Origin: Rugalucina vietnamica | Taxonomy: Eukaryota > Mollusca > Bivalvia > Lucinida > Lucinidae | Direction of reading: 5' to 3' | Length of the DNA: 64,000 nucleotides | NCBI GenBank assembly: GCA_964017185.1 | Contig: OZ024869.1 | Location: 69,286,315 to 69,350,314 of the forward strand | Shown: positions 16,906-59,426 of the stretch, piece after piece | Layout of the letters: every line of letters starts with the position of its first letter | Position numbering within the stretch: the first letter of the stretch is position 1 | Made by a program: the position numbers and the translations under genes | The notes under the pieces: generated by a model | What the model was told of the DNA's origin: nothing | Databases searched by the model: none | Seen by the model: only the letters and a program-made list of their open reading frames with translations

Positions 16906-18310
16906 TTCAGTGAATATATTTGGAGTGTTTCAAATATATTGTACGTTAAGAATCATCTTCTTAACAGTATTTTGATTATTTGGCCCCTTTGGGAATACAA
17001 GTCTTTGATTTAGACTACACCGATGTAAATTTTTGAAATTGCAGCAAAAATGTCTGGCTTTCGCTGCCAGTTTTGTAAAGGGTCACTGACGAAGGTTCAT
17101 TACCCGAAATTGTACAATATGGCCCATCTTCTCGCTTTCAATGTTTTACTGCTTCCAAAGGATCTAACAATTATTTTTATTTGTAATTACTGCAGCTGGT
17201 GTTGTGCCGTGTGGCGGCCCTAAAAAGTCTCCCCGTACATCATCCATAGTGCAGATTATATTTTTCTTTTGATCCTTTGGGTTCAGTGAATATATTTGGA
17301 GTGTTTCAAATATATTGTACGTTAAGAATCATCTTCTTAACAGTATTTTGATTATTTGGCCCCTTTGGGAATACAAGTCTTTGATTTAGACTACACCGAT
17401 GTAAATTTTTGAAATTGCAGCAAAAATGTCTGGCTTTCGCTGTCAGTTTTGTAAAGGGTCACTGACGAAGGTTCATTACCCGAAATTGTACAATATGGCC
17501 CATCTTCTCGCTTTCAATGTTTTACTGCTTCCAAAGGATCTAACAATTATTTTTATTTGTTATTACTGCAGCTGGTGTTGTGCCGTGTGGCGGCCCTAAA
17601 AAGTCTCCCCGTACATCATCCATAGTGCAGATTATATTTTTCTTTTGATCCTTTGGGTTCAGTGAATATACTTGGAGTGTTTCAAATATATTGTACGTTA
17701 AGAATCATCTTCTTAACAGTATTTTGATTATTTGGCCCCTTTGGGAATACAAGTCTTTGATTTAGACTACACCGATGTAAATTTTTGAAATTGCAGCAAA
17801 AATGTCTGGCTTTCGCTGCCAGTTTTGTAAAGGGTCACTGACGAAGGTTCATTACCCGAAATTGTACAATATGGCCCATCTTCTCGCTTTCAATGTTTTA
17901 CTGCTTCCAAAGGATCTAACAATTATTTTTATTTGCTATTACTGCAGCTGGTGTTGTGCCGTGTGGCGGCCATAAAAAGTCTCCCCGTACATCATCCATA
18001 GTGCAGATTATATTTTTCTTTTGATCCTTTGGGTTCAGTGAATATATTTGGAGTGTTTCAAATATATTGTACGTTAAGAATCATCTTCTTAACAGTATTT
18101 TGATTATTTGGCCCCTTTGGGAATACAAGTCTTTGATTTAGACTACACCGATGTAAATTTTTGAAATTGCAGCAGAAATGTCTGGCTTTCGCTGCCAGTT
18201 TTGTAAAGGGTCACTGACGAAGGTTCATTACCCGACATTGTACGATATGGCCCATCTTCTCGCTTTCAATGTTTTACTGCTTCCAAAGGATCTAACAATT
18301 ATTTTTATTA
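16906..18310 (+). repeat. Tandem array, 376-bp unit, 3.7 copies
   Basis: Units start at 16906, 17282, 17658 and 18034, each beginning TTCAGTGAATATA. They differ at only a few positions (for example GCTGCCAG/GCTGTCAG, and TTTGTAATTAC/TTTGTTATTAC/TTTGCTATTAC). The last unit stops after AACAATTATTTTTATT. No unit has a long ORF. A much more diverged single unit lies in the opposite orientation at about 35264-35590. The array lies between the GST gene and the 3' end of the CUB gene. Confidence 0.92.
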
Positions 18311-21756: not shown

Positions 21757-24700
21757 CTCCTCAGAAACTGTAAAGTGGATGAATCCTGTCCTTTGTATAC
21801 ATGTAACTGACAGTAGCCTCTACATAATTTGTGTTTTTTATTCCAGTCGGATAAGAACTCTGGTTGCTATGGTTTCCATAGACTTATAATGGGAAAAGTG
21901 GGAAAGTGGTAATTAGCTGTTTTTTCTGGACCAATTGTAGGTATTTGAATTTTGTCTTTGCAGAAATATTTATTGAGTATATCTCTATGTTTCATGTGAC
22001 TTTTTTCCTAATCCTTTATTTTGATTGGTTGCTGGGGCCACATAAAGGGTAAAATTTCGAAAAACATTTAAAAATCTTCTCCTCAGAAATAATCTACGGC
22101 ATGAAGCCTGTACTTTGTATACATGTTCCTAACAGTAGTCTCTAAATAATTTGTGTTTTTTATTTCAGTCGGATAAGAAATCTGGTTGCTATGGCAACTT
22201 AAAGTTTTGATAGACTGAAAACGGGAAAAGTGGAAATTGGCTATTTTTTCTGGTCCAATCGCAGATATTTGAATTCTATTTTTTGCAGATCTATGTTTAT
22301 AAAGTAGTCCTCTACAGTTTGGTTGACTTTTGTCCTAATCCTTTATTTTGATTGGTTGGTGGGGCCCCATAAAGGGCAAATTTTCTAAATAAATATTTGG
22401 TTAATATAGCAGATCTCAGGTGAGCGTTTACAGGACCGTTGGTCCTCTGGTTATAAAGTTAAACTTGGGTATGCAAGAGAATACCTATTTTCTTGTTTTG
22501 GCGCCAAAACATAGATTGTAGGTACTCGAAAGAACCACCTCCCTTGGTGGTTCCAACGTGGACCCACAATCTATGTTTCGAGCAAAAATATGAAAAATAT
22601 CAAAAGTTTTCTACTGAAATGTTTCATTTTTTACAACTTTTAAAATCATTATATATTGCATGTGCCTGTTTTTATAATGGTGAAAACAAAACAGAGTATA
22701 GGAACATTGCATCTCCCGCATATTTCAAAGAATTGCATATGAGCCTGTGTGTGAGAAAATCAACAATTTTGGTCTCCGACCAGGTCCGACACAAACCGGG
22801 CTGTACAGTCAAAGAAGAAGGTTAGATGCTGGAGAATTTCGGATTTAGAAAGTAGAGGAATTGTACTATCCGTGTAGCGAATACAAAGGCGCTAATAAGC
22901 TTTGCAGTTACTGCGAAGCTAATCTGTGCCTTTGTTTTCGCATAAGCGAAAATCCGGTTTTCTCATGACGCGGCTCATATCATGGACGTTAAGATCTCAT
23001 CACACATAAGCGAACGTCTCTCGACGTAGACATGCGCAGACTTGGTTTTATTATAAAAAGTAATTAAATTGTTTGATTTATTGTTTTACGTCCCTTTCAA
23101 CAGCTAACATCCCGACATGACCGTAGCTGTTGACTGGGATGTAAAGTAATATATCGAACAAACAAAAACTATTTTTCGGAATTAAACGCAAGTCTGCGTC
23201 GAGAGATTTTCGCTTATGTGTGACGAGGCGTTAAGAACGGAAACAATAGACCTGTGGTGCTGTAGTATATGAGGAACTTGACATTTGGCGGAGCCCGAAG
23301 GTGCACGTATAACACGTTAGACACTGACGTCATTGGTGGCGATGGAGGGCTTCCTCCACAGAGTAGGTCTACTGTCCCATTATCATTTGAGACCTGTGTG
23401 GAACATTTAATGTCGATATTCACTGCATTTAGACATACTAAAGTGTTAATGTCCATGTATGAAAATTATTTCTTTTTAATTTAGATCGATAAGAAGAAAT
23501 TAAAACCCAGCAAACTGATTGACGATTAGATTTTTTATATCGCAATTATAGCCAAACTGAGCTCGGTTCTATTGCCACTAGGGAGGCGTCATTTAACAAT
23601 ACGTTGTTATACCAAGCGAGAAAATATGTACTTTCGTGGTGGAAAGGAAAAGCAAAATACTCTTACATGTACCGTGAATCATTGTGTAGCTCATAAGTTG
23701 AGCTAGCTCATAAGTTGACCATCTCGTTTCCTGCTATGAGAGTCCCTTACAATGGCAATCTTTTCAAGTAATAATGAAATCGCATCAGGAAAACATGTCC
23801 GTGAAATGCCCCACGTTTTATAGTAAATCTGAGGTTCGCAGGGGTATACCTTTTTTCTTATTTTTATCCAGAACATGGATTGTGGGTACTCGTTCGAACC
23901 GCCTCGCCGATTGTGTACCCACAATATATGTTTTGAGCAAAAATATTAAATATATTAAACATTTTCTGATGAAATTTTCATTTTTTACAGCTAATCAAAT
24001 CTCTGTATATTGCATGGGCTAGTTTTCATAATGGTACCTCAATGAAATAGTCACAATCCTCTGTCCATTGTAAGCGCATCTCAGCCATATAGATTTGTAT
24101 GGCAGGGACATGTTTCTGTTGCCTGATTGTCCATAGACAGTCAAAACGTATATCCGTATCAAAGGAGCCAAACTGCCCAGCAATAGCCCAGGTTTGGTAA
24201 CCGCAATTTACATCTGAAAACATGCAATGCTGATAAAGACTATTATATAGCATAGCACACGTGTACAATACTGAATGTTTATTGTAACGGAATTTTTGAC
24301 TATGGAATGATTGCATTCATTAAACAGCAGTCACACAGTAGCGGATAAGTGAAACGCGCGCCGGGCGTGTTGAAAAAATTGCAAAATTCCAAATACTCCA
24401 GACGCACGTCAGAGACACGTTCAAAGCGCGTTACGAGCACGTTGGGTACGCTTGGTGTACGTCCGGTGCGCATCGCTGTACGTCGCTAAAAATCGTCGCG
24501 CGTTTCGTGCGCGTTTGGGATCAAAATGTTTTTAAACATGCTTAAAAATTTTCTAGAAGCTCGGCGTGTCCCGAACGTGTGACTTATACGTTTCGAATAA
24601 GTTCCACACGCGCTACAGGCGCGTTGAATACGCTTCGAACGCGTTTGGCACACGTTTAAGGCACGTCAGTGTACGCTACATGCGCGTTCCGATTTTATGA

Positions 24701-27700
24701 GATACTGTTTCAGTAGCGTGCCCCAAGCGTGTGTGAGACGCGCGCTGAACGTTTGCTGCGCGTCTATAGCGCTTGCTTAGCGTGTGTGGGACGTAACACA
24801 AACGTACTTTAAAACTTTGAGATTTTTATACGTCCGGCATATGCCTCAGTTGCGCGCTAATGTGTGACTGCTAAAGGTACGCGTCCAAAATCTTTTGCGT
24901 GTTGAGATTTTTCATACGCCCGGCGCGCGTTTGGGTTATACGCTAATGTGTGACTGCTGTTTTAGATTTAGTCTCCGGGACTTTTTTCATTTAGAACTAA
25001 GGGATACACGCCTACGGGGTGAGTTTGACATATACCACGACTGTATGGTTGCAATTATGTAATGTACATGTATTATCTGTTTCTTCTGATCTGGGGCCAG
25101 TTGTTCAAAATAACCGATGTCGTTAATTAACGATTCCGAACGGTTAAAATTTAAAATGGCAACATTACAAATACACTGTTATTTTTTTTTCCAATAAAAA
25201 TAACAGTGTATTTGCTTTTGAACAAATTGAGGGCTTAACGACAGCGTTAAGCTAACAAGTTTTGAACAACTGGGCCCTGGTGTTCGGCTTATTGATTCGA
25301 TTGTACAATTCCTGGACATCATCTACTTTAACTAAAAAGAATTATACCGTCCAATTCAGTATATGTAGCGTTGAAGCCTCTTCTGTTGATAAAGCCATCT
25401 GACCTGAAGTCGATAAACACGAGTCTTGCTTCAGAGACGAATTCAGAAATCGTTGTACCACAATAATGCCCGACTTTGGTGTTGCCATCTCGAATCTGTG
25501 GGTTCATAAAGGGCAAAACATCATTGGCACAATGTGCTTGATATTCGTTCTCGGCGATTTTAGAAACGTCGATTCTAGGATAGTTTTATTCATTAATTTG
25601 CGTGAAGAGATTTAATGTCAATGTCATGTGAATATATTTTAAGATGTCATTATCAAACATGAGCCGCCGCATGGGAAAACCAACAATCTGTATAGGCGAA
25701 AACAAAGGCGCAGATCAGCTTCGCAGTCACTGCGAAGCTGATCAGCGACTTTGTTTTAACTACACGGATGGTACAATCCCTCTTCTACTTATATACAAAA
25801 TTTCAAGCCTCTAACCACCTTCTGTGACTGTATAGCCCGGTTTGTGTCGGACCTGGTCGGAACCCAATTTTTTTTTTTCACGCATAGGCTCATATCCGTT
25901 CTCGGCGACGTTAGAAACATCGATTTTAGGATATTTTGATTCGAGAGATTAAATGTCAATGCCATGTGAATATATTTTAAGATGTAATAATATTACGAAC
26001 TACGGTTACGGTTTTAAGCGTTGCTTTACTCTTACCGTCAAGTAGTCATATTGGCACTTCAGCGACTCTTCAAGATCGAATTCCAGGAACTGTATCAGAA
26101 TAACCTTGTTATCAGGCACCCTGATGATCCAGGTGCAGCGATAGTTGAAGTCGTATTCTCCATCTTGATCAGTGTCGGGCGAGGCGAACCACCCGGTGGA
26201 GTTAGATAGAATATCTCCGCAGAAGTTTTGGGCAAATACTGCGGTGAAAATACATCATGCAAACGTGTCCGACAATGAATACCCCGCTATACCCCAGTTT
26301 TATGTTGTGAGAATTGGGCTTACAGGGTTTATCATTTTGTTCTTATTTTTGCTCCAAAACAGATTGTGGGTACTCGTTAGAACCGCATCGGTTTTGCTCC
26401 AAAATACAGATTGTGGGTACTCGTTGGGCGAGGCGGTTCTAACGAGTACATACAATCTATGTTTTGGAGCAAAAATAAGAAAAATAGGTACACCCCTGCA
26501 TACCCCAGTTTTGCTATATATAAAAGTGGGGTTCCGGAGGGTATACAATATACGGACATGTTTCCGTGATATTTAAACTGCTAATAAATTGAAAAATTTC
26601 ATGAAGCACGGTTTAGTTTGCTTCAAAGTACAAGTTATAACGACAAAATTCTTATGCGTGATAAAATGTTTTGCAATAGAATAAAATTTGGGGTAACCAT
26701 TGGTGTAACAAATATTACAAACTATTTTGTAGCGATTTCACTCATGTTCAGTGTATATATACTGAGTTCCTCAGCCAATGCAACTTTATTTTCCCCTCTC
26801 ATCTTTTAAACTGGTCAATTATATGAAAACTTTTGTGCCCTATTATCATTAAAATGACTCGAAAATCTTTAATGCGCATGGGCGGGAACACGCCCCAGGG
26901 TACAAAAATGCATGTTTCGTGCCCCGCGCGATCGGGCTGTAAATTTTTAAAAACAATTCACATATATTGTAATTCAAATCGATGAGTGTATTGCAATATC
27001 GAATGTTGACACCCTAGTGAACTCAACGCGATTTTCAGTACCCGAAAAATGCTTGTTTTTAGGCGTTCAATGTCACTTGGTCAAATGGTTGACGTCACTG
27101 CAGATGTCAACCATACGCTGTATTTTGCGTTGGCAACTAAAGTGTATTGCAGCTATGGGAAAGTCATTTTTCAATGTGTTTTGCTGCTTTAGATTAGGAT
27201 GGTTTGCACAGTTTAGTAAGAAATTCATCAAAGTCGCTGATTTCATTAATTTTTCAAAATGACCCCTTCGCCAGTTTTTACGCAATTATAGGCAAAATGA
27301 AGAATGTCTGACGACTGATTTTCACAGGTCATCTTTGAAAATGATTTGACTACAGGTGCGTTCAGTTATTAATATACCCCTGCGGAATTCAGAAATAAAT
27401 TGACAACGTTTCTTGTTTTTGAACAATCGTCACTGGCAAGAAATGGACAACTGGTTGAAATTGTTTATATAATGTGTTAAGTATGGGTATAATATTTACT
27501 TTGTATATAAAACTTCCATATCTTGTGATGTTGTATGCCTAAAATGATTGCATAACATATGGAGCCAAATTTTTAACAAAGTTTCCACATGGAATCGTGG
27601 TAAACGGATTGTAATTATATTTGTAATTTATGAAAGAATGACCATTTTGGCACTAAGGCTGAAAATTTGATGTCTTTATGATCACTATTTAGAAAGTTTC

Positions 27701-29605: not shown

Positions 29606-31768
29606 CCAGAGGACCAATGGTCCTGAGAACGCTCACCTGAAGCCTGATCTTGGAGTATTAAGTCACCATGAAATGACCTTGACCTTGAATACTCACACAC
29701 CTTTATTGACTTCATAAGTTGTCTGCATCTGCCAAGTTTTAGGTCTCCGGTTGCAATAGTTTCCAAACCCAGTGATTTCTAAGAAAAAACATTATCTTAA
29801 TTTTGATATTGAAATGACCTTGGGTCACAGTCAAGAAATGACATTGGCCTTAATTTATTACTTACCTTCATTGACTCCATTAGTTGTCTACATCTAGCAA
29901 CTTTCACGTCTCAGGCTGCAACAGTTTCCAAAATATCCATTGTTTTCGCATTTTCCCATGTAAAAGCCTTTGTTTCCAAAATTGACTTTGCCGTAAAATA
30001 GGTCAAGGTCATCCTAGGGTCATCATTGGATCAAACTATGAATGGCTGGAGTCCCAAATGCTACATACCAAGTTTCGTGAAAATCTGCCTGCCAGTTCTC
30101 GAGAAGAAGATTTTGAGTGGTTTTACCATATATGGGCATGGCGGCCATCTTGGTCATGTAACCCGGATTTCTCGATCAAACTTTCATTCCCGCTACCCAT
30201 GGATGCTCCTGATAAAATTTCACTTTGATTGGCCAAGCTGTTTCAGAGAAGAAGATCTTTGGAAAGTGTGTATGGACGACAGACTGTCCAAGGTCAAGAA
30301 ATGACCTTGACCTAAATAAATTAATTACACACCTTCATCCACTCCATTAGTTGTTTGCATCTACCACTTTTCAGGTTGGCTGCAACAATTTTCAAATAAA
30401 TCCATAGTTTCACTTTTTTACATGTAAAAGCCTATGTTTCCAAAATTGACCTTGTCGTAAAATAGGTCAAGGTCATCGTAGCATCATCATTTGATCAAAC
30501 TATGATGGACTAAAGTCCCAAATGCTACATACCAAGTTTCATGAAAATCAGCCTGCCGGTTCTGGAGAAGAAGATTTTTGAGTGTTTTTAACATATATGG
30601 GCGTGGCGGCCATCTTGGTCATGTGACACAGATTTCGCGATCAAACTTACATTCACCCTATCCATGGATGCTCCACATAAAATTTCACTTTGATTGGCCT
30701 AGCAGTTTCAGAGAAGAAGATTTTTTTAAAAATGTGTATGGACGACAGACTGCCCAAGGTCAAGAGATGACCTTGACCTAAACTAATCACATACCTTCAT
30801 CTACTCCATTAGTTGTTTGCATCTACCACTTTTCAGGTCTCAGGCTGCAATAGTTTCCAAAAATTCAATAGTTTTCACTTTTTCCCTTGTAAAAGCCCAT
30901 GTTTCCAAAATTGACCTTGTCGTAAAATAGGTCAAGGTCATCCTAGTGTCATCATTTTATCAAACTACGATGGGCTGAAGTCCCAAATGCTACATACAAA
31001 GTTTCATGAAAATCGGCCTGCCGGTTCTGGAGAAGAATATGTTTGAGTGTTTTTTACCATATATGGGCGTGGTGGCCAGCTTGGTCATGTGACCCGGATT
31101 TCTCGATCAAACTTTCATTCCCCCTACCCATGGATGCTCCACATAAAATTTCACTTTGATTAGCCTAGCAGTTTCAGAGAAGAAATTTTTTGAAAAATGT
31201 GTATGGACGACAGACTGGCCAAGGTCAAGAGATGACCTTGACCTAAATTGATCACATACCTTCATCTACTCCATTAGTTGTTTGCATCTACCACTTTTCA
31301 GGTCTCAGACTGCAATAGTTTCCAAAAATTCTATAGTTTTCACTTTTTCCTTTGTAATAGCCTATGTTTCCAAAATTGACCTTGTCGTAAAATAGGTCAA
31401 GGTCATCCTAGTGTCATCATTTTATCAAACTATGATGGGCTGAAGTCCCGAATGCTACATACCAAGTTTCATGAATATCGGCCTGCCGGTTCTGGAGAAG
31501 AACATTTTTGAGTGTTTTTTACCATATATGGGCATGGCGGCCATCTTGGTCATGTGACCCAGATTTCGCGATCAAACTTTCAATGCCACTACCCAAGGAG
31601 GCTCCACATAAAATTTCTACAAGATCGGCCAAGTGGTTTCAGAGAAGAAGATCATTGAAATTGTGGACGACGGACGACGGACGGACAACGGACGGACGGA
31701 CGGACGGACGGACGCCGGATCATGGTCATCCTATAAGCTCACCTTGTGAGCCTTTGGCTCAGTTGAGC
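29606..31768 (-). mobile_element. Pearl/HINE-like element, ~465-bp core
   Basis: Begins CCAGAGGACCAATGGTCCTG, including the GGACCAATGGTCC palindrome. It contains about four tandem ~465-bp units, marked by AAGGTCAAGAGATGACCTTG at about 30290, 30757 and 31221. It then has a (GGAC)n run at 31668-31712 and a terminal GAGCCTTTGGCTCAGTTGAGC. Host sequence TAAA separates it from the next element. Its open frames are fortuitous. Confidence 0.75.
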
Positions 31769-31772
31769 TAAA

Positions 31773-33726
31773 CCAGAGGACCAATGGTCCTGTAAACGCT
31801 CACCTGAGACCTAGTAATCACTTTTTCGATGTAAAAGCCTATGTTTCCAAAATTTTGCAGTAAAATAGACCAAGGTCATCCTAGGGTCTTCATATGTACA
31901 AGCTATGATGGGCTGAAGTCCTAAATGCTACATACTGAGTTTCGTGAAAATTGGCCAGCCGGTTCTGGAGAAAAAGATTTTTGAGTGGTTTTTACCAGAT
32001 ATGGGCATGGCAGCCATCTTGGTCAGGTGACCCGGATTTCACGATCAAACTTTCATTCCCCCTATCCATGGATGCTCCAAATAAAATTTCATTTTGATTG
32101 GCCAAGGGGTTTCAGAGATGAAAATGTTTGAAAAGTGTATATGGACGACAGACCATGGCCATGGTTAAGAGATGACCTTGATCTAAATAAATCACAAACC
32201 TTCATCTACTCCATAAGTTGTTTGCATCTACCACTTTTCAGGTCTCAGGCTGCAATAGTTTTCAAAAAATCCATAGTTTTTACTTTTTTCCATGTAAAAG
32301 CCTTTGTTTCCAAAATTGACCTTGCTGTAAAATAGGTCAAGGTCATCCCAGGGTCATCATTCTATCAAACTATGATGGGCTGGAGTCACCGATGCTACAT
32401 ACCAAGTTTCGTGGAAATCGGCCCACCGGTTCTGGACAAGAAAATTTTCGGGTGGTTTTTACCATATATGGGCGTGGCGGCCATCTTGGTCATGTGACCT
32501 GGATTTCGCGATCAAACTTGAAATTCCGCTACCAAAGGAGGCTCCACATAAAATTTCAACTTAATCGGCCAAGCGGTTTCAAAGAAGAAAATCTTTGAAA
32601 TTGTTGACGATGACGGACGGACGACGGACTCAAGGGCACCTAACTCAGCAGTCCATGGTCAAATCTCGTGGAATTCTGAACTCAACCGAGATCTCATGGC
32701 TATTCTTGTTACATGGAAGAATGAAGAATATCTGATCAAAAATAACAAAGTTAATGCGTGGACACCATTTTCCCATTATAAGTCTATGGGGATTTTTTCA
32801 AACGCTCAAGGGCAGATAACTCCACGGCCCGTGGTCGGATCTGGCTGAATTTCGAACTTGTCCGAGCTCTTATGAATGTTGTTGTTCCTTGTGAGTATGG
32901 AAAAGATCTAATTGAAAATAGCGGAGATAATGCGTGGACAACATTTTCTCCATACAAAGTCTAAGGGGATTTTTCAAACGCTCAAGGGCAGATAACTCCG
33001 CGGCCCGTAGTCGGATCTGGCTGAATTTTGAACTCGTCCGAGCTCTTATGTATGTTGTTGTTCCATGCAAGTATGGAAAAGATCAAATTGAAAATAGCGA
33101 AGATAATGCGTGGACAACATTTTCTCCATACAAAGTCTATGGGGATTTTTTCAAACGCTCAAGGGCAGATAACTCCGCAGCCCGTAGTCGGATCTGGCTG
33201 AATTTCGAACTCAACCGAGATGTTATGCATGTTGTTGTTCTTTGCAAGTATGGAAAAGATCCAATCGAAAATAGCGGAGATAATGCGTGGACACCATTTT
33301 CCCATTATAAGTCTATAGGGATTTTTTCAAATGCTCAAGGGCAAATAACTCCGCAGCCCGAGGTCTGATCAGGCTGAATTTCGAACTCATCCGAGCTCTT
33401 ATGTAAGTTGTTGTTCCTTGCAAGTATGGAAAAGATCCAATCGAAAATAGCGGAGATAATGCGTGGACAACATTTTCACCATACAAAGTCTATGGGAGTT
33501 GTCTGTTGCCATAGCAACCAGAGTTCTAATTCAATCTGCTTCAAAGCCTTATGCAGGCAATGCCCCACTACAATGATGCTGCTAATAAAGTTTGATTGCA
33601 ATCGGCCTACTGGTCTCTTAGATATTCATCTTTGAAACTGTGGACGACGGACGGACGACGGACGGACGCCGGATCATGGTCATCCTAGCTATAAGCTCAC
33701 ATTGTGAGCCTTCGGCTCAGGTGAGC
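31773..33726 (-). mobile_element. Pearl/HINE-like element, 465-bp and 176-bp cores
   Basis: Starts CCAGAGGACCAATGGTCCTG and has about 1.5 units of the 465-bp core. Then come about 4.7 units of a different 176/177-bp core (GCTCAAGGGCAGATAACTCC at about 32804, 32980, 33157 and, diverged, 33333) and a (GGAC)n run. It ends TTCGGCTCAGGTGAGC. The 144-codon open frame at 32934-33368 is only this tandem repeat. Confidence 0.75.
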
Positions 33727-34399: not shown

Positions 34400-34850
34400 T
34401 CATCGCTTTTGACCTCTTGTTTTATGGAAACTCTAAAGAAATGAGATAAAGCTGTAGGTTTTCTTAAGAGTTGTAAATACCTAGACAGGATGTATTAATC
34501 ACATGCACCAAAATGCAATGTGTAGAAAAAGTAAAGTAAGTAACATGTCTGACGGACCAACTGTTTCAAAATTGTTTTATTTATATTAGATTTAAGCATA
34601 TGAGCACGAAACACTAATTTATTATGCTGTAAAATGGATCAATAGTAAAATATCATTCACAAAATGCTTTATTATACTTTATTGCAATCCAAGCGGTAAC
34701 ATACTTTACATGTCTGTTATGAAAAATTGACCTCAGATTACTTAGTAAAACATGGTTTTCTAAGCACCTCAGATGTATCCCTGATACATGGTACCGCTTG
34801 AACTTTTCTTCCTGGGGGGTGAAACAGGACGATTGTTTTTCGGTTTGGCT
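34400..34850. other. 3' flank of the cystatin-like gene
   Basis: No gene seen. On the minus strand, AATAAA-type hexamers (complements of TTTATT near 34664-34683) are possible poly(A) signals for the gene ending at 35100. Confidence 0.3.
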
Positions 34851-35099: not shown

Positions 35100-37969
35100 C
35101 TACCAGCATCTACTTCTACCCCAGGGCATCATCCATGGAAAACGCTTCAACACCACAGGAAGGCCGCGCGCCGGATAACCGACGTGGGCCACACACTGTC
35201 TCTGAAAAGTAAATGAGTAGCGTCACGAGAAAACTCTGTATTCGGAGATTCCTACGAAAGTAAACAAATAAAAATTAAAACTGAGATCCTTTAAGAGCAG
35301 TGAACACATTAATGAGAAAGGGGATGGGCCATACCGCGGTTTCGACTAGTAAAGTCTCGTCAGTGACCCTTTAGATTTGGCAACATGGAGCCAAAGAGAA
35401 CTACAGAAATTTTGCAACTTTCAACAGGGTAGTCGATAAAAAGACTAATATTATCTAAATGGGGCCAAATATGTTAAACTGTGGTTAGAAAATGAATCTT
35501 AACCGATAAGAAATTTCTGATTTCTCAGAATATCCTCGCTGATCTCAAAGGACCAAAAAGAAAATATAACCTGCACTATGGTAGCCCAAAGTAGCCCAAA
35601 GGGCAACGATCGCTCACCTGAGAGTCAACAAAAACAGTCACTGGACAAAGTGATTATTTTTTTACCCTAAATGGGTATGACGGCCATCTTGGTAATGTTT
35701 CAGGTCTGTGGCTGCAATAGTTACCATAGGATCATTGGTCCTGTAAACGCTTTCCTGAGACCTAGTTGTCACTTTTCCCCATGTTTCCATGTTTCCCATT
35801 GTTTCCAAAATTGACCTTGACCTAAATTAATCACATACCTTTATCTACTCTATTAGTTGTTTGCATCTACCACTTTTCAGGTCTCAGGCTGCATTTAGTT
35901 TACAAAATATCCATTGTTTTCACTTTTTCCCATGTAAAAGCCTATGTTTCCAAAATTGACCTTGCCGTAAAATAGGTCAAGTTCATCCTAGGATTAGTAT
36001 TTTATCAAACTATGAGGGCTGGAGTCCCAAATGCTACATACCAAGTTTCGTGAAAATCGGCCTGCCGGTTCTGGAGAAGAAGATTTTTGAGTGTTTTTAC
36101 CATAGATGGGCGCGGCGGCCATCTTGGTCGTGTAACCTAGATTTCGGGATCAAACTTTCGTTACCCATACCCAGGCATGCTCCACATAAAATTTCAGTTT
36201 GATTGGCCATGCGGTTTCAGAGAAGAAGATCTTTGAAAAGTTTGTACAAACGACAGATCGGCCAAGGTCAAGAGATGACCTTGACCTAAATTAATCACAT
36301 ATTTTCATTAGTTGTTTTGCATCTACCACTTTTCATGTCTCAGGCTGCAATAGTTTTCAAAAAATCCATATTTTTCACTTTTTCCCATGTAAAAGCCTAT
36401 GTTTCCAAAATTGACCTTGACGTAAAATAGGTCAAGGTCATCCTAGGGTCATTATTTGATCAAACTACGATGGGCTGGAGTCCCAAATGCTACATACCAA
36501 GTTTCGTGAAAATCGGCTTGCCCGTTCTGGAGATGAAGATTTTTGAGTGGTTTTTACCATATATGGGCCTGGCGGCCATCTTGGTCATGTGGCCCAAATT
36601 TTGCGATCAAATTTTCGTCCCCACTACCCAGGGATGCTCCACATAAAATTTCACTTTGATTGGCCAAGCGGTTTCAGAGAAGTAGATCTTTGAAAAGTGT
36701 GCATGGATGACAGACCCTTCAAGGTCAAGAGATGACCTTGGCCTAAATTAATCACATTATTTGTTTGCCTATGTTTCCAAAATTGACCTTGACCTAAATT
36801 AATCACATACCTTCATCTACTCCATTAGTTGTTTGCATCTACCACTTTTCAGGTCTCAGGCTGCAATAGTTTTCAAAAAATTGCAATTTCCGCTTTTCGT
36901 CTTATAAGTCAATGGAAACTTTAAGTTGCCATAGCAACCAAAGTAGTGGGACAAGGACAATAAAAAATACAAACTTTGTAGAGGCTAATATCATAAGCAT
37001 GTATGCAAAGTTTCAGCTTCATCCGCCTTACAGCTTCTGAGAAGAAAATTTTTGAATATTTTTTCGAAAACTTACCCTTTGCGTTGCTATAGCAACCAAA
37101 CAAATAAAGCGATTTTGACAAAAGTTGCCTAAAACGGGGAAGACTACTCAATAAACATTCATGTAAAAACAAAATTTCAGTATCCTCAATGAAACGGCAG
37201 AAATTGCAAATTTCCACTTTTTGCCTTATAAGTCAATAGAAACTTCAAGTAACCATAGCAACCAAAGTAGTTGGACAAAGACAATAAAAAACACAAACTT
37301 TGCACAGGCTAATGTCATAAGCATGTACGCTAAATTCCAGCTTCATCCCCCATACGGCTTCTGAGAAGAAGATTTTTAATATTTTTTTCGAAAATTTACC
37401 CTTTATATTGCTATAGCAACAAAACGAATAAAGTGATTTTTACAAAAGTTGCCTTAAACGTGAAGGACTACTCAATAAACATTTACAAAATGTATGTAAA
37501 AACATAATTCAAATATCCCCAGCCTGACAACGGAAAATGCCAATTTCCACTTTTTCTCCATACAAGTCAATGGAAACTTCAAGTTGCCATAGCAACCAGA
37601 GTTCTTATCCGATCGAAATAAAAAACACAAATATTCGTTCCCCCCACCTGTAGATGTTATATGTAAAATATGAAAAGATTCGGCCTGGCAGCTTCAGAGG
37701 AGAAGTCGTTTGAAAATGTTGACGACGACGGACGACGCACGGACACCGACTCGACTACTATACTATAAGCTGACCTTGTGAGCCTTCAGCTCATGTGAGC
37801 TAAAAACACGGTTTGTAGAGACTACACACCTGAAATTTCGGATTTAAGAAGAAGAGACTTTGTTCTGCGAAACAAGGCGCAAACTGAAAAATAGCTATTC
37901 AGTTACCCGCACACCCGATCTGCGCTTTTGTTTTTGTATAATGATAATAATAATAATAATAATAATAAT

Positions 37970-38000
<31 letters not shown>

Positions 38001-38560
38001 TTAATAATAATAATTTGAAGAAGAAGAAGAAGAAGGTTTATCGATATGCGGCTCAAATATGAATTCTGACACACATTATTACTGTTTTAAGCTGACAATG
38101 GCAAGGAATTGAAACAAATATGTAGTTAACCCATATTTGACGAATGGATTTTCCTATCATTATCAATTGGGTGAGTCCACTTTCTTTTTTAGGGGTATTA
38201 GGAGTGATTTTTATTTTTTATATCATTTCTTGGTGAAAATCCTTTAAGCGATCAGAATAGCCCCAGATGGGATGTCGCGTTCTGCGGCATCACATCTGGG
38301 GCTATTCTGTTTGCCAATGTCCCATAAAAGGGACGCCAGGCTTAAATATGTTAACGAAGATCCATCAAATATAAGCCAACAGGGGGAACGTTGTTTCAGT
38401 GAAGGAATTACACCTCTTGGACCTACGTATTACACTTACCCTCAACCACCACGGGCCAGACATGAATACGACGCGAAAGTACATATATCGCCCGGGATCA
38501 ATCCAAACCTGAAATTAAGAAATGGGAAGCGTCATGAGAAAACCAACAATGAGGTTTCTG

Positions 38561-38598
<38 letters not shown>

Positions 38599-41500
38599 CG
38601 ACACAAACCGAGCTATACAAGAACAGAAGACGGCCAGATGCTGGAAATTTTGAATATAGAAAGTATCTAGGAATTGTACTATTTGTGTAGCGAAAACAAA
38701 GGCTTGAGAACTCATAATTTATTCGATATTCCAGTTGCATTCAATATTAGTAGGAGCTGTAGCAGGACAGCGTTGCACGCCTGACATGTCTTTTGTCACA
38801 AACTATTAAAAATGATCCAATTTCAAACGGTTCAAGCTTTAAACCAATAACTGAAACATGTTGCCCACTGATCACATTTGAAATTTTGTTCCGTGTTCAG
38901 GCCTGGGTCATGTAATTGTTAGCTCACCTGAGCCGTCAGGCTCACAAGGTGAGCCTTTAGTATACCCAGGCTCCGTCGTGCGACGTCGCACACTTTTCAA
39001 TCATCTTCTTCTCTGAAACCGCTTGGCCAATCAAATTCAAATTTCACGTGGAGCATCCTTAGGATGGGGGAACGAAATTTTTTACAAATTGTTCTATGTC
39101 ACATGACCAAGATGGCCGCCAGGGCTATAAATAGCAAAAACCTTTAAAAATCTTCTGCTCCAGAACCAGAAGGCCTATGATTTTGTAACTTGGCATGAAG
39201 CATCAGGCAATGCAGCTCTACAAAGTTTGTATAAATCATGACCCTGGGATGACCTTGACCTTTTTTACGGCAAGGTCAACTTAGGTCGCCCATGCATTTG
39301 AATGGGGAAAAATCAGAAAATGTCATTTAATGGCAGAAAACTTGCTAGGAATGAGCAAATGGACAGAAGATTTATGTTTATGAAAATATTTTGGGCCCAT
39401 GGGGTTGTCTGCCCCTACCCCAGGACTATATACATGTATATGACCAAAATATTCAAACATCTTCTCTGAAACCGCTTGGCCAATCAAAGCCAAAACTTTA
39501 TGTGGAACATCCTTAGGAAGAGGGAATGAAAGTTTGCATGAATGGTCAAGGTCACATGACCAAGATGGCCGCCATGGCTATAAATAGCAAAAACCTTTAA
39601 AAATTTTCTTCTCCAGAACCAGGAGGCCTATGATTTTGAAACTTTGGCATGGAGCATCAAGGAATAGAGGTCAACAAAATTTATATAAATCATGACCCTG
39701 GGATGACCTGGACCTATTTTACGGCAAGGTCAACTTAGGTCGCCCATGCATTTGAATGGGGAAAATTGTTAAAATGTCATTTGAAGGGCAAAATTTGAAG
39801 TAAATTGGCAATTGGACTGAATTTTCATGATTTGAAAAGACATTGGCTCCAGGGGTTATTCTGACCCTGCCCTGGGGTTATATACATGCATATTACCATT
39901 GTAGTCAAACAGGTTTATAAGTATATAGCTCAGGTCTCAGGTGAGCGTTTAATAGACCGTTGGTCCTCTTGTTTACTATGTGTTGCAGGAAATTGGGCGA
40001 CAGTTATCCAAACGAAGAGGAACATAAAGTAAATAAAATCAAAACCACAAGCTTACCCGTCCTGCTGCTCCAAAGATCGTCTCCACGTAAGCAGATGGTC
40101 CTAGCAGTTGCCTAGCAGCTTCATTCGCCACATATCGAACCGTTGAGTCGAACGGACTAACATGATACCAAGGGCCCGGCACTGCGTGCGTCACGGCACA
40201 CAAAACCTAAAGAAAATTCAGTCTCCCGAGATAATGTGACTTCTGGGATTTCAAATAATTGTTTTTCATACAGAGTTTATTATCATGCGAGGGTAATATT
40301 TTTGAAACGGAATTGTATACAGCAGAAGTATTTTTAGCTTCGAAAAGGTGAAATTAAGCTTAGGTTTTGACCAATCAACAACGGATACAATGCTTGGCAT
40401 TTGCTTTAGTTTTCTCCATTTATCCATTATATGGCAATAATTATTTTGAAAATGACTTCTGTATAACTTTTAACCATGTGATTAATATTTCCGATCATTC
40501 AGACATTGGGTCGAAACTTTATTAGTGATTCTTCAATGAAAGAGCTTTTGCAAAACATACAGCCATACTCAATGTTTTACTACAATTCAGGGTTTTGTCA
40601 TTTTTGTTTAAACTATTCACTTTTAAAAGCACTTGATATACTCAATGCCAAAAGTAACTTTACACTTTTTGTTGATAGTTTTTTCAGTTAAAGGTGTTTA
40701 ATATTTATAAAGTGTTTGGTATGTACTAAAGTCTGATTAATTACACATTAGGTAGACGGAATTTTAAGGATTTAATGACAGAATGCTGCCACACGCCCCT
40801 ATTAAACATTTAAGGGGTCAAAATAAAGTTTTCTTTTTTCCAGGTCACATCAATTTTATGTGTAACTGTAGTTTTATCAATTAACAACATTTATAGTTTG
40901 AAGACATATATAGTCTGTAAGAGATGTTATTGTATTGCTTATTTAAGTTTAAATTAACTCGAATGTGTTCCTGCTCGAACAACAAACTGGAGTGATGTTT
41001 TCAGGTCCAATGCCCATTTTGCGACATTAACAATGGTTTCAATGAAAAATCCCATTACAAATTATTTGCCGTTTTTCTTTCTAACCGATGGGATTTGTTT
41101 CACTAGCCAATGTTACCACACATTTCGATTGGGGCCCCAAACGATTCGCAATGCAAAAAAGTTCGATACGACTGAAGGAAAAAAACTTGAGAAATGGTTC
41201 AAGTTTACTATTGGTGTATTTCAATGGGAGATAATTTCGATGCAAAGCAAATTTAACAGCCTTTAAAAATCAAACAAAATGTCGGAGCGAAAATGTCTGG
41301 CAGTATTTTTGAAGGACAATAAGTGGTTCTTGGCACACTGTGTTCAAATCTTCTGTCTACCTTTGATTTGATGGGAAAATGCCAATTTTGTGCTTTTAAT
41401 GAAGCACAGATAAGTCGCAAGTGGATTAAGTTACATCAAGGAGTTTGGCTTGAAATTCCTTGGTTACATCAACCGCTTTACATGCATTATGCTCGGACAC

Positions 41501-44500
41501 ATGTTGGAGACGCACTCCATTAGATACTTTGTTACTCGTGATTATTGATGCGACGTGGAATGTTAATGCATGCTATTATGAAGTTTCGTATGCGTCGGCG
41601 AGATCGTTACGAATGCGACGTTCCACATACTCTGCCCTTGAACGGTGAGCATCACGTTTTGCTCTCGTGAAAATAAACAAAGTCGAGTTTACAAAATCGG
41701 CGTCCACTGTGATCTGCAAAATTCTTCTATGTTCCCACTTGAAGTCAATTGGAATACTTACGGCACTTGTGTTTTTCAGCTTATGGTTTATAAAGTTGAC
41801 CTGTAGATACAATTTTGCCACGAAAACTCATTACATTCTTAAATTCCTTTTGTTTTTCTTTGTCTTGGTCGTAAACTAAAAAGTATACAATCAATTGTGC
41901 ACAGAAAGGAGCGACGAAAGCCACTATGCAAACGTGAGAAAACACGACCTGTCAATGAAATATTTTAGGTCATGTACTTGAATGTAGGGTCAAAATTGAT
42001 ACATCAAACAAATTCTATCGATTGAAGTTCTCTTTGTGCCCTTGTTTTGTACTTTTAACATCCGCAGTAAATGGCCATGCTTAGAGAAAAGGAAAATATA
42101 TCAATTGAATTTCGGGTTGAATTTATAAGTTTTATCTTGATTTACATCATTATCATAAGCTTAGAGGCAATCAATTAGATGAAGATCAATTATAGGGTAG
42201 ATTTATTATAGAAAATTGCGACTGAACTGATGAGATAAACTGCCTAGTCAAAAAACGGTTATTGACAAATCAACACTTTTTCGTGTGACACAGCTCTAGA
42301 CTACTTATAAGACGAGTGACCTAGCGATTTTCGGAAAACACGCTCACTGACCTTGGTTTTGATTCAAAATATTTTGGGTTGACGCAATTAGAATCGTCGC
42401 GGTGAAAAGCTCACGATTGTAACACAGTCCTGTGGGTGTCTTTATTGAAATATATATCCAAACGGCTTTGTAAATGCACATTTATCTACTGAGCGTGAAA
42501 AACAGTAAGATAAGCATCTTTTTTATGCCATCGAAGACTGTCAAAATTTAATATGCGACACAGAAATGCATCGTGGAAGAATGAGACCGACGATTCAGTA
42601 AAATTAAATAGCAAATGTTGCGATATGGAGACACTGATGCATTTTCTTCAATAAATATTTTAAGATACATGTTAAAGGGGTCAACCATGGTTTTTATACT
42701 GTATTATCACTTGCAGAGGCTGGAGAAAGTTGTTCGAGCCCGAGGCCGAGGGTTCAAAGTGCTCCCGAAGACTCTTCTAATGTTAATGCAATGAAATAAC
42801 CATAGTTGATCGCTGTTCTTGTATAACACACCATTCCAATGGAAAACTGCCTCGCAACCGCACCTAACAATCGCATAAACCCCTTTAATTCTGTTGTTTT
42901 TCCCCTGCTCATCAGAAATGCATGGAGCCACCCATATTCAATGATCAAAAATTATTTGGTTTAGCCTTAGATTCATTTAATGTAAGGAAACATACAAGCT
43001 CTGTCACTAATATGTCCAAAAATGATTTGCTGTTTCGAGGCAAGAATAAATCAGGTGTGTCATTCGAATGTTGACAAAGCTGAATCAGAAACCCCACTCT
43101 GTGACCTCATTCAAAATTAAAGTGGTATATGCTTTGAAGATCGCTCAACGAAGTGCATGTAGTCCAAGGAAAAACGCCAATATTTCGCTTGAATGCTTCT
43201 GCAAGTACGTAAATAACTTTTGAAAGAGCACAACAAAAGTGCTAATTCTTCCATGACTCATTCTAGTAGTACGTATCTTCGTCTTCGATGCATACAAACG
43301 ATGCTTATCTTACTGTTTTTCACGTTCAGTAAATAAATTTGCATTTGCTAAAGGTTATATCAGATTTTACATCCTTTTAGAGGAAACATTCAATAACTGG
43401 TAGTTAGTTCTGCAAGTCATTTTTCCTCTCAATTACCCTGAACATGGAAAGATAGCCTGGAATAAGAAGCCTATTTTATGGATTTAAAAATAATTATTAT
43501 TATTTATAAACATAAATAATACAAAAAATGAAGAACGATGTCCTTTTCTGCCTCAAGCGACCCCTTAAACAGCGGTCACACATTAGCGTAAAACCCAAAC
43601 ACGCGCCGGGCGTATGAAAAATCTCAACACACTGAAGATTTTGGACTTGTTTCACTCACTTAGCAGTCACACAGCGCGTGACTGAGGTGTGTGCCGGATG
43701 TATAAAAATCTCAAAGTTTTTGAGTACGTTTGTGTTACGTCCCATACACGCTAACAGTGTCGAGAAACAAAGTCCGTGTATGATATATCATTTGTGTATA
43801 CGTCATACGACAGAGCGCGCGTTCGTAGTGCACATAATTTCGGAAATCGTGCGTTGCTATTTTCATATGAAAGAAAAATGTTTTATTCATATCCTATCAT
43901 ATGCGGCATATTATCATCACTAATTAGCAATATTTTCTTTCTTTGAAACAATTGTCAACATTAAGAACACTTCGGAACTTTAAAGTTTCCGAAGTGTTCT
44001 CAGAGATCAGATGATGAATTATTAAAGTTTTTACAGTTATACGACTAAAATGTGTGCTGCATATGATAGGATATTTAAAATGTTTCACAAATAACTTACG
44101 CAATCGGCACCACAAGTTTTCCGAACTTAGGTATAGTCCGAACTGTTAAAATTCTTTGTGAGGTCACCGTTATGTGTGCAAATGATAGCTTACACGTAGT
44201 TTGTTTCCCGACAGTGCACTAAGCACGCGCTAGTAGGCGCGCAGCAAACGTTCAACGCGCGTTTCACACACGCTTGGGGCACGCATGTAGCGTACACTGG
44301 CGTGCCTTAAACGTGCACCAAACGTGTTCAAAGCGTATTCGAAACGTATAAGACATACGCCCGGGACACGCCGAGCTTCTAGATAAAACAGCAGTCACAC
44401 AGTAGCGTATAACCCAAACGCGCGCCGGGCGTATGAAAAATATCAACACGCTGAAGACTTTGGACGTATAAAAATTAATTTGTTCCTTTAACTCGCTTTA

Positions 44501-45392
44501 GCATTCACACATTAGCGCGTGACTGGGGCAAGTGCCGGACGTATAAAAAATCTCAAAGTTATGGAGTACGGTTGTGATACGTCCCAGACACGCTAAGCAC
44601 GCGCTACAGGCGCGCATCGAACGTTCAACGCGCGTTTCACACACGCTTGGGGCACGCTACTGAAGCAACATCTAATAAAATCGGAACGCGCATGGAACGT
44701 ACACTGGCGTGCTTCAAATGCGCGCCAAACGCGTTCAGAGCGTATTCAAAGCGCCTGTAGCGCGCGTGGAACTTATTCGGGGCGTACATGTATAAGTTAC
44801 ACGCCCGGGACACGCCGAGCTTTTAGAAAATTTTTAATTATGTTTAAAAATTTTTGAGCCCAAACGCGCGCGAAACGCGCAGAGACTTTTAGCGACGTAC
44901 AGCGACGCGCGCCGGACGTACACCAAGCGTACCCAACGCATTTGTAGCGAGTTTTGAACGTGTTTCCGACGTGCGTCTGGCGTATGTGGAATCTTGCTAT
45001 TTTTTCAACACGCCCGGCGCGCGTTTCACTTACACGCTACTGTGTGACTGCTGTTTTATTTTAAGCATGTTTAATTTTTTTTTAGTCCAAACGCGCACGA
45101 AACGCGCACCGACTTTATGCGACGTACAACGACGAGCGTCGGACGTACACCAAGCGTACCCAAGTTTCTAACGTGTCTCCGACGTGCTCCTGGCGTATGT
45201 TGAATTTTACATTTTTATCAACACGCCCGGCGCGCGTTTGGCTTGTACGCTAATGTGTGACTGCTATTATAAATATGACGTTCATTTGGCGTAAAGACTA
45301 TATGCTATTAGCAACAAAAGCAGAAATAAACTTTAATAAACGTAACGAAAAAAACTTACTCCGACTGATAATATCAGCAAATAAAATTTCAT
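35100..45392 (-). CDS. Small secreted protein, possibly cystatin/cathelin-like, Arg/Trp-rich C-terminus (4 exons)
   Basis: Exons in coding order: 45392-45360 (11 codons), 40206-40057 (50), 38508-38440 (23) and 35201-35100 (33 plus TAG). All junctions are GT-AG with consensus donors (A|GTAAGT, G|GTAAGC, G|GTAAGT) and pyrimidine-rich acceptors, and all are phase 0. The 117-aa product begins with MKFYLLILSVGVLCAVTHA, a textbook signal peptide split across exons 1 and 2. The mature part has an N-terminal GPW, a helix-like VRYVANEAARQL, a strand-turn RVWIDPGRYMYFRVVF and a late pair of Cys in RRQCVAHVGY and GRSRCW. That order resembles cystatin or cathelin domains: N-terminal Gly, helix, QxVxG-like turn, C-terminal disulfide. 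The QxVxG motif itself is not conserved. The tail LKRFPWMMPWGRSRCW is cationic and Trp-rich. Family and function are inference. The splice, phase and signal-peptide evidence for a real gene is strong. Confidence 0.7.
35264..35590 (-). repeat. Diverged inverted copy of the 376-bp unit
   Basis: The reverse complement shares, in order, CCATAGTGCAG, TATATTTTCTTTT, TTTGGCCCC, GGGTCACTGACGA and ATGGCCCATC with the array at 16906-18310. It is much more diverged than the array units are from each other. It ends about 60 bp upstream of exon 4 of the cystatin-like gene. Confidence 0.7.
35587..37800 (-). mobile_element. Pearl/HINE-like element(s), 465-bp and 328-bp cores
   Basis: The left end is AAGGGCAACGATCGCTCACC. 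A second internal terminus (ATCATTGGTCCTGTAAACGC, about 35730) suggests one element nested in or recombined with another. About two 465-bp core units (to 36770) are followed by about 2.5 units of the 328-bp core (GCCATAGCAACCAAAG at 36926, then about 37250 and 37585). A (GACG)n run and a terminal CTCATGTGAGC close it. Confidence 0.65.
37801..38050 (-). mobile_element. MITE, TGAGCCGCCTC family, with (AAT)n expansion
   Basis: Partial copy: ACGGTTTGTAGAG, TGAAATTTCGGATTTAAGAA, CGATCTGCGCTTTTG and terminal GCGGCTCA. It is interrupted by an (AAT)n tract at 37941-38013 and an (AAG)n run. Confidence 0.6.
38130..38350 (+). mobile_element. 221-bp MITE with TTAA target duplication, copy 1
   Basis: Flanked by TTAA (38126-38129 and 38351-38354). 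Imperfect inverted termini CCCATATTTGAC and CATATTTAAGCC. Central hairpin AATAGCCCCAGATG ... CATCTGGGGCTATT. A second copy of exactly 221 bp, inverted, is at 46087-46307. TTAA duplication with CCC-type ends is typical of piggyBac-mobilised elements (inference). Confidence 0.85.
38527..38706 (+). mobile_element. MITE, TGAGCCGCCTC family (truncated, poly(A) expanded)
   Basis: Has GCGTCATGAGAAAACCAACA at the left end, a long A tract at 38561-38596, CGACACAAACCG, GAATTGTACTATT and GCGAAAACAAAGGC. The second half is missing. Confidence 0.65.
38754..38805 (+). repeat. Fragment of the GAGCTGTCGCAGGACAGCG element end
   Basis: GAGCTGTAGCAGGACAGCGT and ACGCCTGACATGTC match the left end of the element at 52420-53690. 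The tandem core is absent. Confidence 0.7.
38922..39971 (+). mobile_element. Pearl/HINE-like element
   Basis: Left end GCTCACCTGAGCCGTCAGGC with its CACAAGGTGAGC partner, preceded by TTA. About two core units follow (CAAGATGGCCGCC at about 39109 and 39560), with GATGACCTTGACC / AAGGTCAAC words. The right end is TCAGGTGAGCG, then GACCGTTGGTCCTCTTG, then TTTA. It lies in intron 2 of the cystatin-like gene. Confidence 0.75.
40210..43560. other. Intron 1 of the cystatin-like gene, mostly unassigned
   Basis: AT-rich sequence. An imperfect inverted pair (about 42460-42540 against 43265-43350, sharing CGTGAAAAACAGTAAGATAA) suggests a decayed element of roughly 0.9-1 kb. I found no coding exon. Confidence 0.4.
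43568..45260. mobile_element. CpG-rich foldback elements, CAGCAGTCACACA family, nested/tandem
   Basis: An outer unit starts AACAGCGGTCACACATTAGC (TTA before it) and ends TGTGTGACTGCTA at about 45260. A second complete-looking unit, AACAGCAGTCACACAGTAGC to TGTGTGACTGCTGTT, lies inside at about 44392-45053. Further internal AGCAGTCACACAGCGCGTGA and AGCATTCACACATTAGCGCG words show repeated insertions or rearrangement. The same CpG words as at 24323-24961 fill the interior. An AT-rich stretch at 43830-44200 separates the arms. It ends about 100 bp from exon 1 of the cystatin-like gene. Confidence 0.75.
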
Positions 45393-52419: not shown

Positions 52420-53690
52420 GAGCTGTCGCAGGACAGCGTAGCTCGCCTGACTTGTGCTTTGTCACTAAATCTATTAAATCTACGACCAAAGACATAGACC
52501 TCATTGTCACTCAGGTGGGTTGTGATGGTACAGCATAAAACTTCAGACCAATATCTACCAACATGCTAAGTTCAACTTGATCCATCTACATATTTGATAT
52601 AGACTTATATCCTAAAATCTAAGTCTGTGACCTTGACCACAGGTGAGTCAAGATGCTACAGCATAATAAAAGAATAATATCTAACAGCAAAGTATCAACT
52701 AGATCCATCCATCTGTTCCAGCAATATACAGTTCAAAACACTTAAAGCAAAAGCTTTAACATAAAATTTCAAAGTCTGTGACCTTGAACTCAAGGTCACC
52801 CAGGTGGGTCATGATGGTACAGCATAAAACTTCAGACCAATATCTACCAACATGCAAAGTATCAACTTGATCCCTCTACATATTCAAGAGATATAGACTT
52901 ATAAAAACTTTAACCAAAATCTCTAACACAAAATTTCTAAGTCCATAACCTTGACCTCAAGGTCACCCAGGTGGGTCATGATGGTACAGCATAAAACTTC
53001 AGACCAATATCTACCAACATGCAAAGTATCAACTTGATCCCTCTACATATTCAAGAGATATAGACTTATAAAAACTTTAACCAAAATCTCTAACACAAAA
53101 TTTCTAAGTCCATAACCTTGACCTCAAGGTCACCCAGGTGGGTCATGATGGTACAGCATAAAACTTCAGACCAATATCTACCAACATGCAAAGTATCAAC
53201 TTAATCCCTCTACATATTCAAGAGATATAGACTTATAAAAACTTTAACCAAAAACTCTAACACAAAATTTCTAAGTCCATAACCTTGACCTCAAGGTCAC
53301 CCAGGTGGGTCATGATGGTACAGAATAAAACGTCAGACCAATATGTACCAACATGCAAAGTATCAACCTGATCCATCAACAACTTCAAGAGATATAGACT
53401 TATAAAAACTTTAACCAAAAACTTTAACAAAAAATTTCTAAGTCTGTGACCTTGACCTCAAGGTCACCCAGGTGGGTCATGATGGTACAGCATAAAACTT
53501 CAGACCAATATCTACCAACATGCAAAGTATCAACTTGATCCATCATTAACTTCAAGAGATATAGACTCATAAAAACTTTAACCAAAAACTTTAACATTTT
53601 GAGCAACGCCGACGCCGACGCTAACGCCAACGCCGACGCCGACGCCGGGGTGACTGCAATAGCTCTTCCTGTACTTTCGTACAGGCGAGC
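52420..53690 (+). mobile_element. Pearl/HINE-like element with 167-bp core, inserted in LINE ORF2
   Basis: The left end GAGCTGTCGCAGGACAGCGT forms a hairpin with the following AGCTCGCC. About six 167-bp core units follow (AAGGTCACCCAGGTGGGTCA at 52792, 52959, 53126, 53293 and 53460), then a (GACGCC)n run at 53606-53647. The right end has a hairpin CCTGTACTTTCGTACAGG and then CGAGC. TAA lies on both sides (52417-52419 and 53691-53693). Deleting the element with one TAA rejoins the LINE codons in frame. Confidence 0.85.
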
Positions 53691-58745: not shown

Positions 58746-59426
58746 TGATTATTCGAGAATCTAAATTGATATTTCAGAGACTCATCCAAAAACGAAAATC
58801 TAGGTTCTTTTAATGCCCGATGTAGCGTATATGCTACATAAACCAGACATTGGCTAATGCATGACCAGACACAAATAAATAAGGATAAAAGCCATGTTTT
58901 TGCTTAAAATCATGTTTGTAACAAAAATGTAGCATAATTTTATTCATACATGCATACTGAGAGTCAGGAAACTAAATAAAATTGATGTTTGATTGTGTTG
59001 CACAATGTATCATATATGATACATAACATTTTCTGCCCGATGTAGCAAATATGCTACATCAAAATTTGAACGAAAGTTCTGCATTATTCAGGTAGCACAG
59101 ATATTTTCAAGATATTTATTTATTGTTTTTAACATTTAAAAAGTTATATTAAGAAAGTTTGACATTTTGTACCTACCTGCTTATGATCTTTTCATGTAAT
59201 TCAAATGACCTATAATTCACACATTTACCTAGTAATGGCGGCGGCCATTTTGAAAGGAAGATAAAAGTCACATGACACAAAGCTAGACAAAAATACCACA
59301 ATTCCTGGAAACACTGCAACATATACTTTTACAATAAAAGGGAAGCAAGTCAAATTACCCATGTTTTAACAAGTTATTGCTTTCTAAAAATCATGTAGCA
59401 TATATGCTACACCGGGCACTAGAGGG

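Follow-up and report, generated by a model that had tools for sequence, protein, structure and literature searches.

A four-exon candidate gene for a predicted secreted, strongly basic and tryptophan-rich protein in the bivalve Rugalucina vietnamica

Do four very short open stretches on the minus strand of the Rugalucina vietnamica (Lucinidae) genome form a gene and, if so, for what kind of protein? The stretches lie at 35100..45392 of a window of 64,000 nucleotides, the whole piece of DNA analysed here (assembly GCA_964017185.1, contig OZ024869.1, forward-strand positions 69,286,315 to 69,350,314). A preliminary description had read them as the spliced exons of one gene, whose product would be secreted, cationic and a diverged member of the cystatin superfamily, perhaps a host-defence precursor or a shell/mucus matrix protein. 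The spliced gene and the secreted, cationic product held up, whereas cystatin membership is not established. We consider it quite probable that the four-exon gene is real. Our preferred, still tentative reading is that this orphan gene, of which a single copy was detected in the genome, encodes an extracellular protein that is secreted, strongly basic and rich in Trp and has a binding or defence role.

The exon model and chance

Read directly from the sequence, the four minus-strand exons (Table 1) are all in phase 0, have GT/AG borders and join into 117 codons followed by TAG. The exons, coordinates, splice borders, phases and product length of the preliminary description are all present, and its count of four basic residues and three Trp in the last 16 residues is correct. 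The donors are GTAAGT, GTAAGC and GTAAGT and the acceptors TTAG, TCAG and TCAG, the acceptor of exon 2 scoring lowest of the three (6.8). The product reads MKFYLLILSVGVLCAVTHA + VPGPWYHVSPFDSTVRYVANEAARQLLGPSAYVETIFGAAGR / VWIDPGRYMYFRVVFMSGPWWLR / RQCVAHVGYPARGLPVVLKRFPWMMPWGRSRCW, and crude rules recognize MKFYLLILSVGVLCAVTHA as an N-terminal signal peptide. A GATAAA hexamer lies downstream of exon 4 at 35077-35072, and the introns are partly made of repeats.

The gene model is unlikely to have arisen by chance. We enumerated four-exon models that have introns of at most 6 kb and encode 80-200 residues, with a crude signal peptide at the start, using approximate splice matrices; the splice cut-offs lie just under the lowest-scoring sites of the candidate, and the remaining thresholds were chosen once it had been seen, so that the comparison is post hoc. 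As GC step we took the difference in guanine-cytosine (GC) content that separates exons 2-4 from flanks of 100 nt. Among the 37 models in the window, the candidate takes first place for the GC step, whether mean or minimum, and second place for the summed splice score; among the 119 signal-peptide models in 264 kb (the window plus 100 kb on each side), its ranks for these three measures are 1, 1 and 6. The candidate's own exon 2 is used by 26 of these 119. In the other 93, the top GC step is 0.15, and only 0.09 in the 20 whose splice scores add up to 50 or more, against 0.20 for the candidate. Of the six best of those 93, four cover parts of a single neurotransmitter-gated channel gene (Pfam PF02932, expectation value (E) 2.7e-13), and this recovery of pieces of a channel gene served as an unplanned positive control. 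No shuffled sequence (0 of 60 Markov-3, 0 of 60 local) yielded a model that combined 0.19 or more in mean GC step with 50 or more in splice sum, and the reversed window gave no model in the same enumeration.

The individual exons contribute unequally to this result. GC content is 0.55, 0.52 and 0.58 in exons 2-4, compared with 0.31-0.43 in the flanks, and the edges of the GC-rich stretches coincide with the splice sites. Exon 3 is second by GC step among 23 internal-exon candidates selected with stricter splice cut-offs, and of the 37 terminal exons in phase 0 that lie within 15 kb, exon 4 has the top GC step.

Homologue searches returned the locus itself. The joined protein without exon 1, searched against the 1.09-Gb genome of the species at E up to 10, matched its own three exons only, and exon 2 searched as DNA matched only itself; of the 40 best matches in a search of the 264 kb, those other than the candidate's own exons were at chance level. 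Since the genome search scores only the candidates that come out best at a first look, it may miss paralogues that have diverged. Because genome matches are limited to these exons, we ruled out that they are pieces of an abundant repeat. Searches of Pfam and NCBIfam gave no family for the protein, the single match in PDB (E 0.67, an E3 ligase chain) is one that we take as chance, and a comparison of exon 2 with viral contigs gave seven pattern matches, none of them a relative. Scans of the window with Rfam at gathering scores and for tRNAs were empty.

Several of these and other observations weigh against the gene and the role that we favour for it. No homologue was found in Pfam, NCBIfam, PDB, the viral contigs or the species' own genome. 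Exon 1 is the weakest part of the model: it is short, AT-rich (GC only 0.27), 5.2 kb upstream and not unique, as 35 phase-0 first exons lie within 25 kb and four of them, the candidate and three alternatives, yield a crude signal peptide. At the other end, five models use other last exons, all with a lower GC step, and one of them, starting at 35251, has a splice sum of 53.6 against 53.4 for the candidate. Codon usage favours no exon, the codon score being matched by 35% of equal-length open stretches for exon 2, 62% for exon 3, 77% for exon 1 and 80% for exon 4; this test is weak because, in its training set of 687 codons of the window, a glutathione S-transferase frame is the only one confirmed by Pfam and two of the frames overlap. 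Finally, composition alone points, perhaps, to a defence function.

The unsupportive codon usage and the lack of homologues in Pfam, PDB and the species' own genome would also fit an accidental series of open stretches bordered by good splice-like sites that is not a gene at all, as would the position of two acceptors immediately beside repeat ends. We regard such a series as improbable in view of the candidate's first rank of 119 by GC step and the absence of a comparable model in 120 shuffles, though the thresholds were post hoc.

The predicted protein and its possible relatives

The predicted mature protein (residues 20-117, 98 residues) has an isoelectric point (pI) of 10.4 and a charge of +7.9, with 11 Arg, 1 Lys, 7 Trp and 2 Cys. 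The charge rises along the chain, from -0.2 (neutral) in the part encoded by exon 2 to +1.7 for exon 3 and +5.8 (pI 11.4) for exon 4. PW pairs occur at residues 23-24, 80-81, 106-107 and 110-111. Amphipathic windows are found at residues 30-45, 55-71 and 91-109, and this spread over several places makes them weak evidence for a helix. The dibasic pair Arg84-Arg85 spans a splice junction, Arg84 ending exon 3 and Arg85 opening exon 4, and a second dibasic pair is Lys103-Arg104.

If expressed, the host gene would yield a 117-residue secreted product, whose signal peptide is divided by intron 1 and would probably be cut after Ala19. Cys87 and Cys116 probably form one disulfide that would close a cationic C-terminal loop. 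We hypothesize that this basic, Trp-rich loop adheres to anionic surfaces such as the bacterial envelope, glycans or mineral, and that the N-terminal helix-plus-strand part may act as a carrier or a fold. The tail could either stay in the folded protein as a loop or be released as a peptide. Automated annotation easily overlooks small genes of this type, which encode secreted proteins in tiny exons separated by long introns full of repeats; this one, if expressed, would be a further orphan effector in the immune or matrix secretome of an animal.

The likeliest alternative, although we think it rather unlikely, is that the protein is a type-2 (secreted) cystatin which has diverged strongly, losing one disulfide and the papain-binding QxVxG, and has a helix-on-sheet fold with PW in the second hairpin. 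The candidate has the order of features of this group: signal peptide, N-terminal GPW, helix-like stretch, PW and final Cys. Aligned globally to a profile built from eight cystatins, it scores z 2.9, a value that 4 of 1000 shuffles and 12 of 1000 exon-wise shuffles attain, and an intron-anchored cystatin alignment was equalled by 4 of 200 shuffles. The global alignment was the second test chosen; it replaced a free-end alignment that had collapsed to the last ten residues and whose score 105 of 250 shuffles reach. With the global alignment, each of the eight profile cystatins, when excluded from the profile, still gives z 10.9-37.4, and stefin A gives 5.8, values well over that of the candidate. 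For the human cathelin domain, which truly shares the fold, z is only 0.9 (33 of 200 shuffles do as well), so that the global test also misses real relatives. Other profile methods give no support: the protein has no Pfam match; PF00031 run over the genome finds one stefin and not the candidate exons, with two candidates scored and short exons being hard for the method; a local hidden Markov model (HMM) of cystatins places the candidate 909th of the 2899 sequences reported from the candidate plus 5000 shuffles; and hhalign against cystatins gives P 0.15 and a probability of 0.4%.

The motifs are similarly ambiguous. There is no QxVxG, and the two nearest segments, QCVAH (-9.6) and VWIDPG (-10.9), fit that site about equally well and are mutually exclusive. 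Type-2 cystatins have two disulfides and four cysteines, two of which are missing here, as the mature protein has two Cys and thus at most one disulfide. Among cystatins more widely, one or two disulfides occur, and none in cestodes, according to PMC4390278. PW is given as the second-loop motif of cystatins in PMC4390278 and PMC2784779; the candidate has four such pairs, and the choice among them hinges on a firm alignment. Both the PW of the tail as this second loop motif and the Arg-Arg across the junction of exons 3 and 4 go beyond the points of the preliminary description.

Introns offer a further comparison. Those of human type-2 cystatins are in phase 0. The candidate's phase-0 introns, between R61 and V62 and between R84 and R85, lie near the human positions that can be taken from Table 3 of PMC10573131, where Q55 of CST1 is in exon 1 and its G59 in exon 2, F58 of CST4 is in exon 2, and A85 of CST2 is in exon 2 and its C98 in exon 3. 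This match depends on which alignment is chosen, and the best-scoring split falls after residue 75 (-7.3), at neither intron. Invertebrate cystatin introns, moreover, vary (section 10 and Table 2 of PMC4390278): cestode cystatins are intronless, and those of C. elegans are split into 102+72+246 and 111+78+243 nt (section 10 of the same source). No bivalve cystatin gene structure turned up in the literature searched.

The global profile alignment and the intron positions thus leave room for the proposed cystatin superfamily membership, which Pfam, PF00031, the local HMM and hhalign fail to bear out. We treat the resemblance as suggestive and do not file the candidate as a cystatin, because QxVxG and half of the cysteines are missing, the alignment is ambiguous and these tests failed.

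It is also possible, though we judge it unlikely, that the protein is a prepropeptide, in which exons 2-3 would encode a pro-region and cleavage at Arg84-Arg85 would free the 32-residue peptide QCVAHVGYPARGLPVVLKRFPWMMPWGRSRCW, with one disulfide. A dibasic site ahead of a putative bioactive segment, as in prohormone and antimicrobial precursors, is present (RR at 84-85, with KR at 103-104); the peptide would be encoded almost exactly by the last exon, and the exon 4 part, with a charge of +5.8, stands beside a neutral exon 2 part (-0.2). The predicted peptide would begin with Gln, possibly as pyroglutamate, and contain Lys103-Arg104 internally. Dibasic pairs are, however, common by chance in an Arg-rich protein, Pfam and NCBIfam gave no matching peptide family, and the cleavage is a prediction.

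Repeats and other features of the window

Two of the three acceptors lie beside ends of an inverted-repeat element (Table 1). Members of this family, which we label as miniature inverted-repeat transposable element (MITE)-like, are mostly ~242 bp long with inverted terminal repeats, and 67 such ends occur in the 264 kb. Downstream of five of the 67 ends an acceptor was found within 25 nt, two of the five being those of exons 3 and 4, compared with 5.7% of random places, which rules out element ends as a general source of acceptors. From their density we estimate, post hoc, that two of three acceptors would lie beside such ends about 1 time in 100,000, a coincidence that is unexplained.

Elsewhere in the window, exons of two domain families and several tandem arrays were identified, as were two long open frames that, we presume, resemble long interspersed nuclear element (LINE)-type reverse transcriptases.

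Table 1. Candidate exons, adjoining repeats and other features, in window coordinates
Feature	Position	Strand	Remarks
Exon 1	45360..45392	-	33 nt; codons 1-11 from the ATG on (MKFYLLILSVG); first half of predicted signal peptide; donor GTAAGT
Exon 2	40057..40206	-	50 codons; end of predicted signal peptide (VLCAVTHA) and mature residues 20-61; amphipathic stretch ~30-45
Exon 3	38440..38508	-	23 codons, VWIDPGRYMYFRVVFMSGPWWLR
Exon 4	35100..35201	-	33 codons and TAG; cationic Trp-rich tail; Cys87, Cys116
Two AATAAA hexamers	34668..34683	-	Candidate polyadenylation signals, from sequence only; ~420 nt past the stop
Right end of inverted-repeat element copy	38520..38544	-	11 nt upstream of exon 3; apparently truncated (by eye)
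Right end of second copy, same element family	35211..35235	-	9 nt upstream of exon 4; truncation judged by eye
GCGC-rich stretch	44384-45059		In intron 1; 84% identical to an inverted copy at 24319-24964, ~20 kb off
Glutathione S-transferase exon	16134-16742	+	PF02798, E 3.8e-12
Tandem repeat, 376 bp	16906-18309		3.7 copies, 99% matches
CUB-domain exons	20481-20798, 25328-25585, 26006-26254	-	Best PF00431 E 3.6e-13
Tandem array, 465 bp	29830-32600
Tandem array, 167 bp	52683-53596
Open frames of 1202 and 740 residues	54440-58048, 59388-61610	+	FADD/YADD motifs

Comparison with cystatins and cathelicidins

Like type-2 cystatins (PF00031), the candidate protein is of about 100-120 residues and predicted to be secreted, with a helix-like N-terminal part, PW and Cys near the C-terminus and, depending on the alignment, introns near the QxVxG site and just before a Cys. 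It differs from them in having neither a Pfam match nor QxVxG, two rather than four Cys, a strongly basic composition and an ambiguous alignment. The only PF00031 match in this genome is a stefin-like exon (stefins being type-1 cystatins) with QVVAG at C6:25002612-25002749. The candidate exons differ from it in lacking a PF00031 match, and the stefin exon continues beyond QVVAG (the frame is open for 14 residues from that Q), so that its intron is placed differently. At C7:18700140-18701924, a 2590-residue open frame has two very weak matches (E 4.7 and 5.9), 1.5 kb apart, to a made-up cystatin query; these are probably due to chance.

Cathelicidins are known as a vertebrate family. In contrast to them, the candidate shows no cathelin domain with its four-cysteine pattern, as it has no Pfam match and two Cys. 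We place very little weight on its being an invertebrate cathelicidin counterpart, in which a cystatin-like pro-region would precede a cationic, Trp-rich, disulfide-closed last-exon peptide freed at Arg-Arg, with no paralogue detected; if true, this would bear on a possible origin of the cathelicidin plan outside vertebrates. The likeness lies in the overall plan, which combines four exons and three introns, as described for bats in PMC12483743, with a signal peptide and an Arg/Trp-rich segment in the last exon (charge +5.8 and pI 11.4 for the exon 4 part) that would form a cationic peptide.

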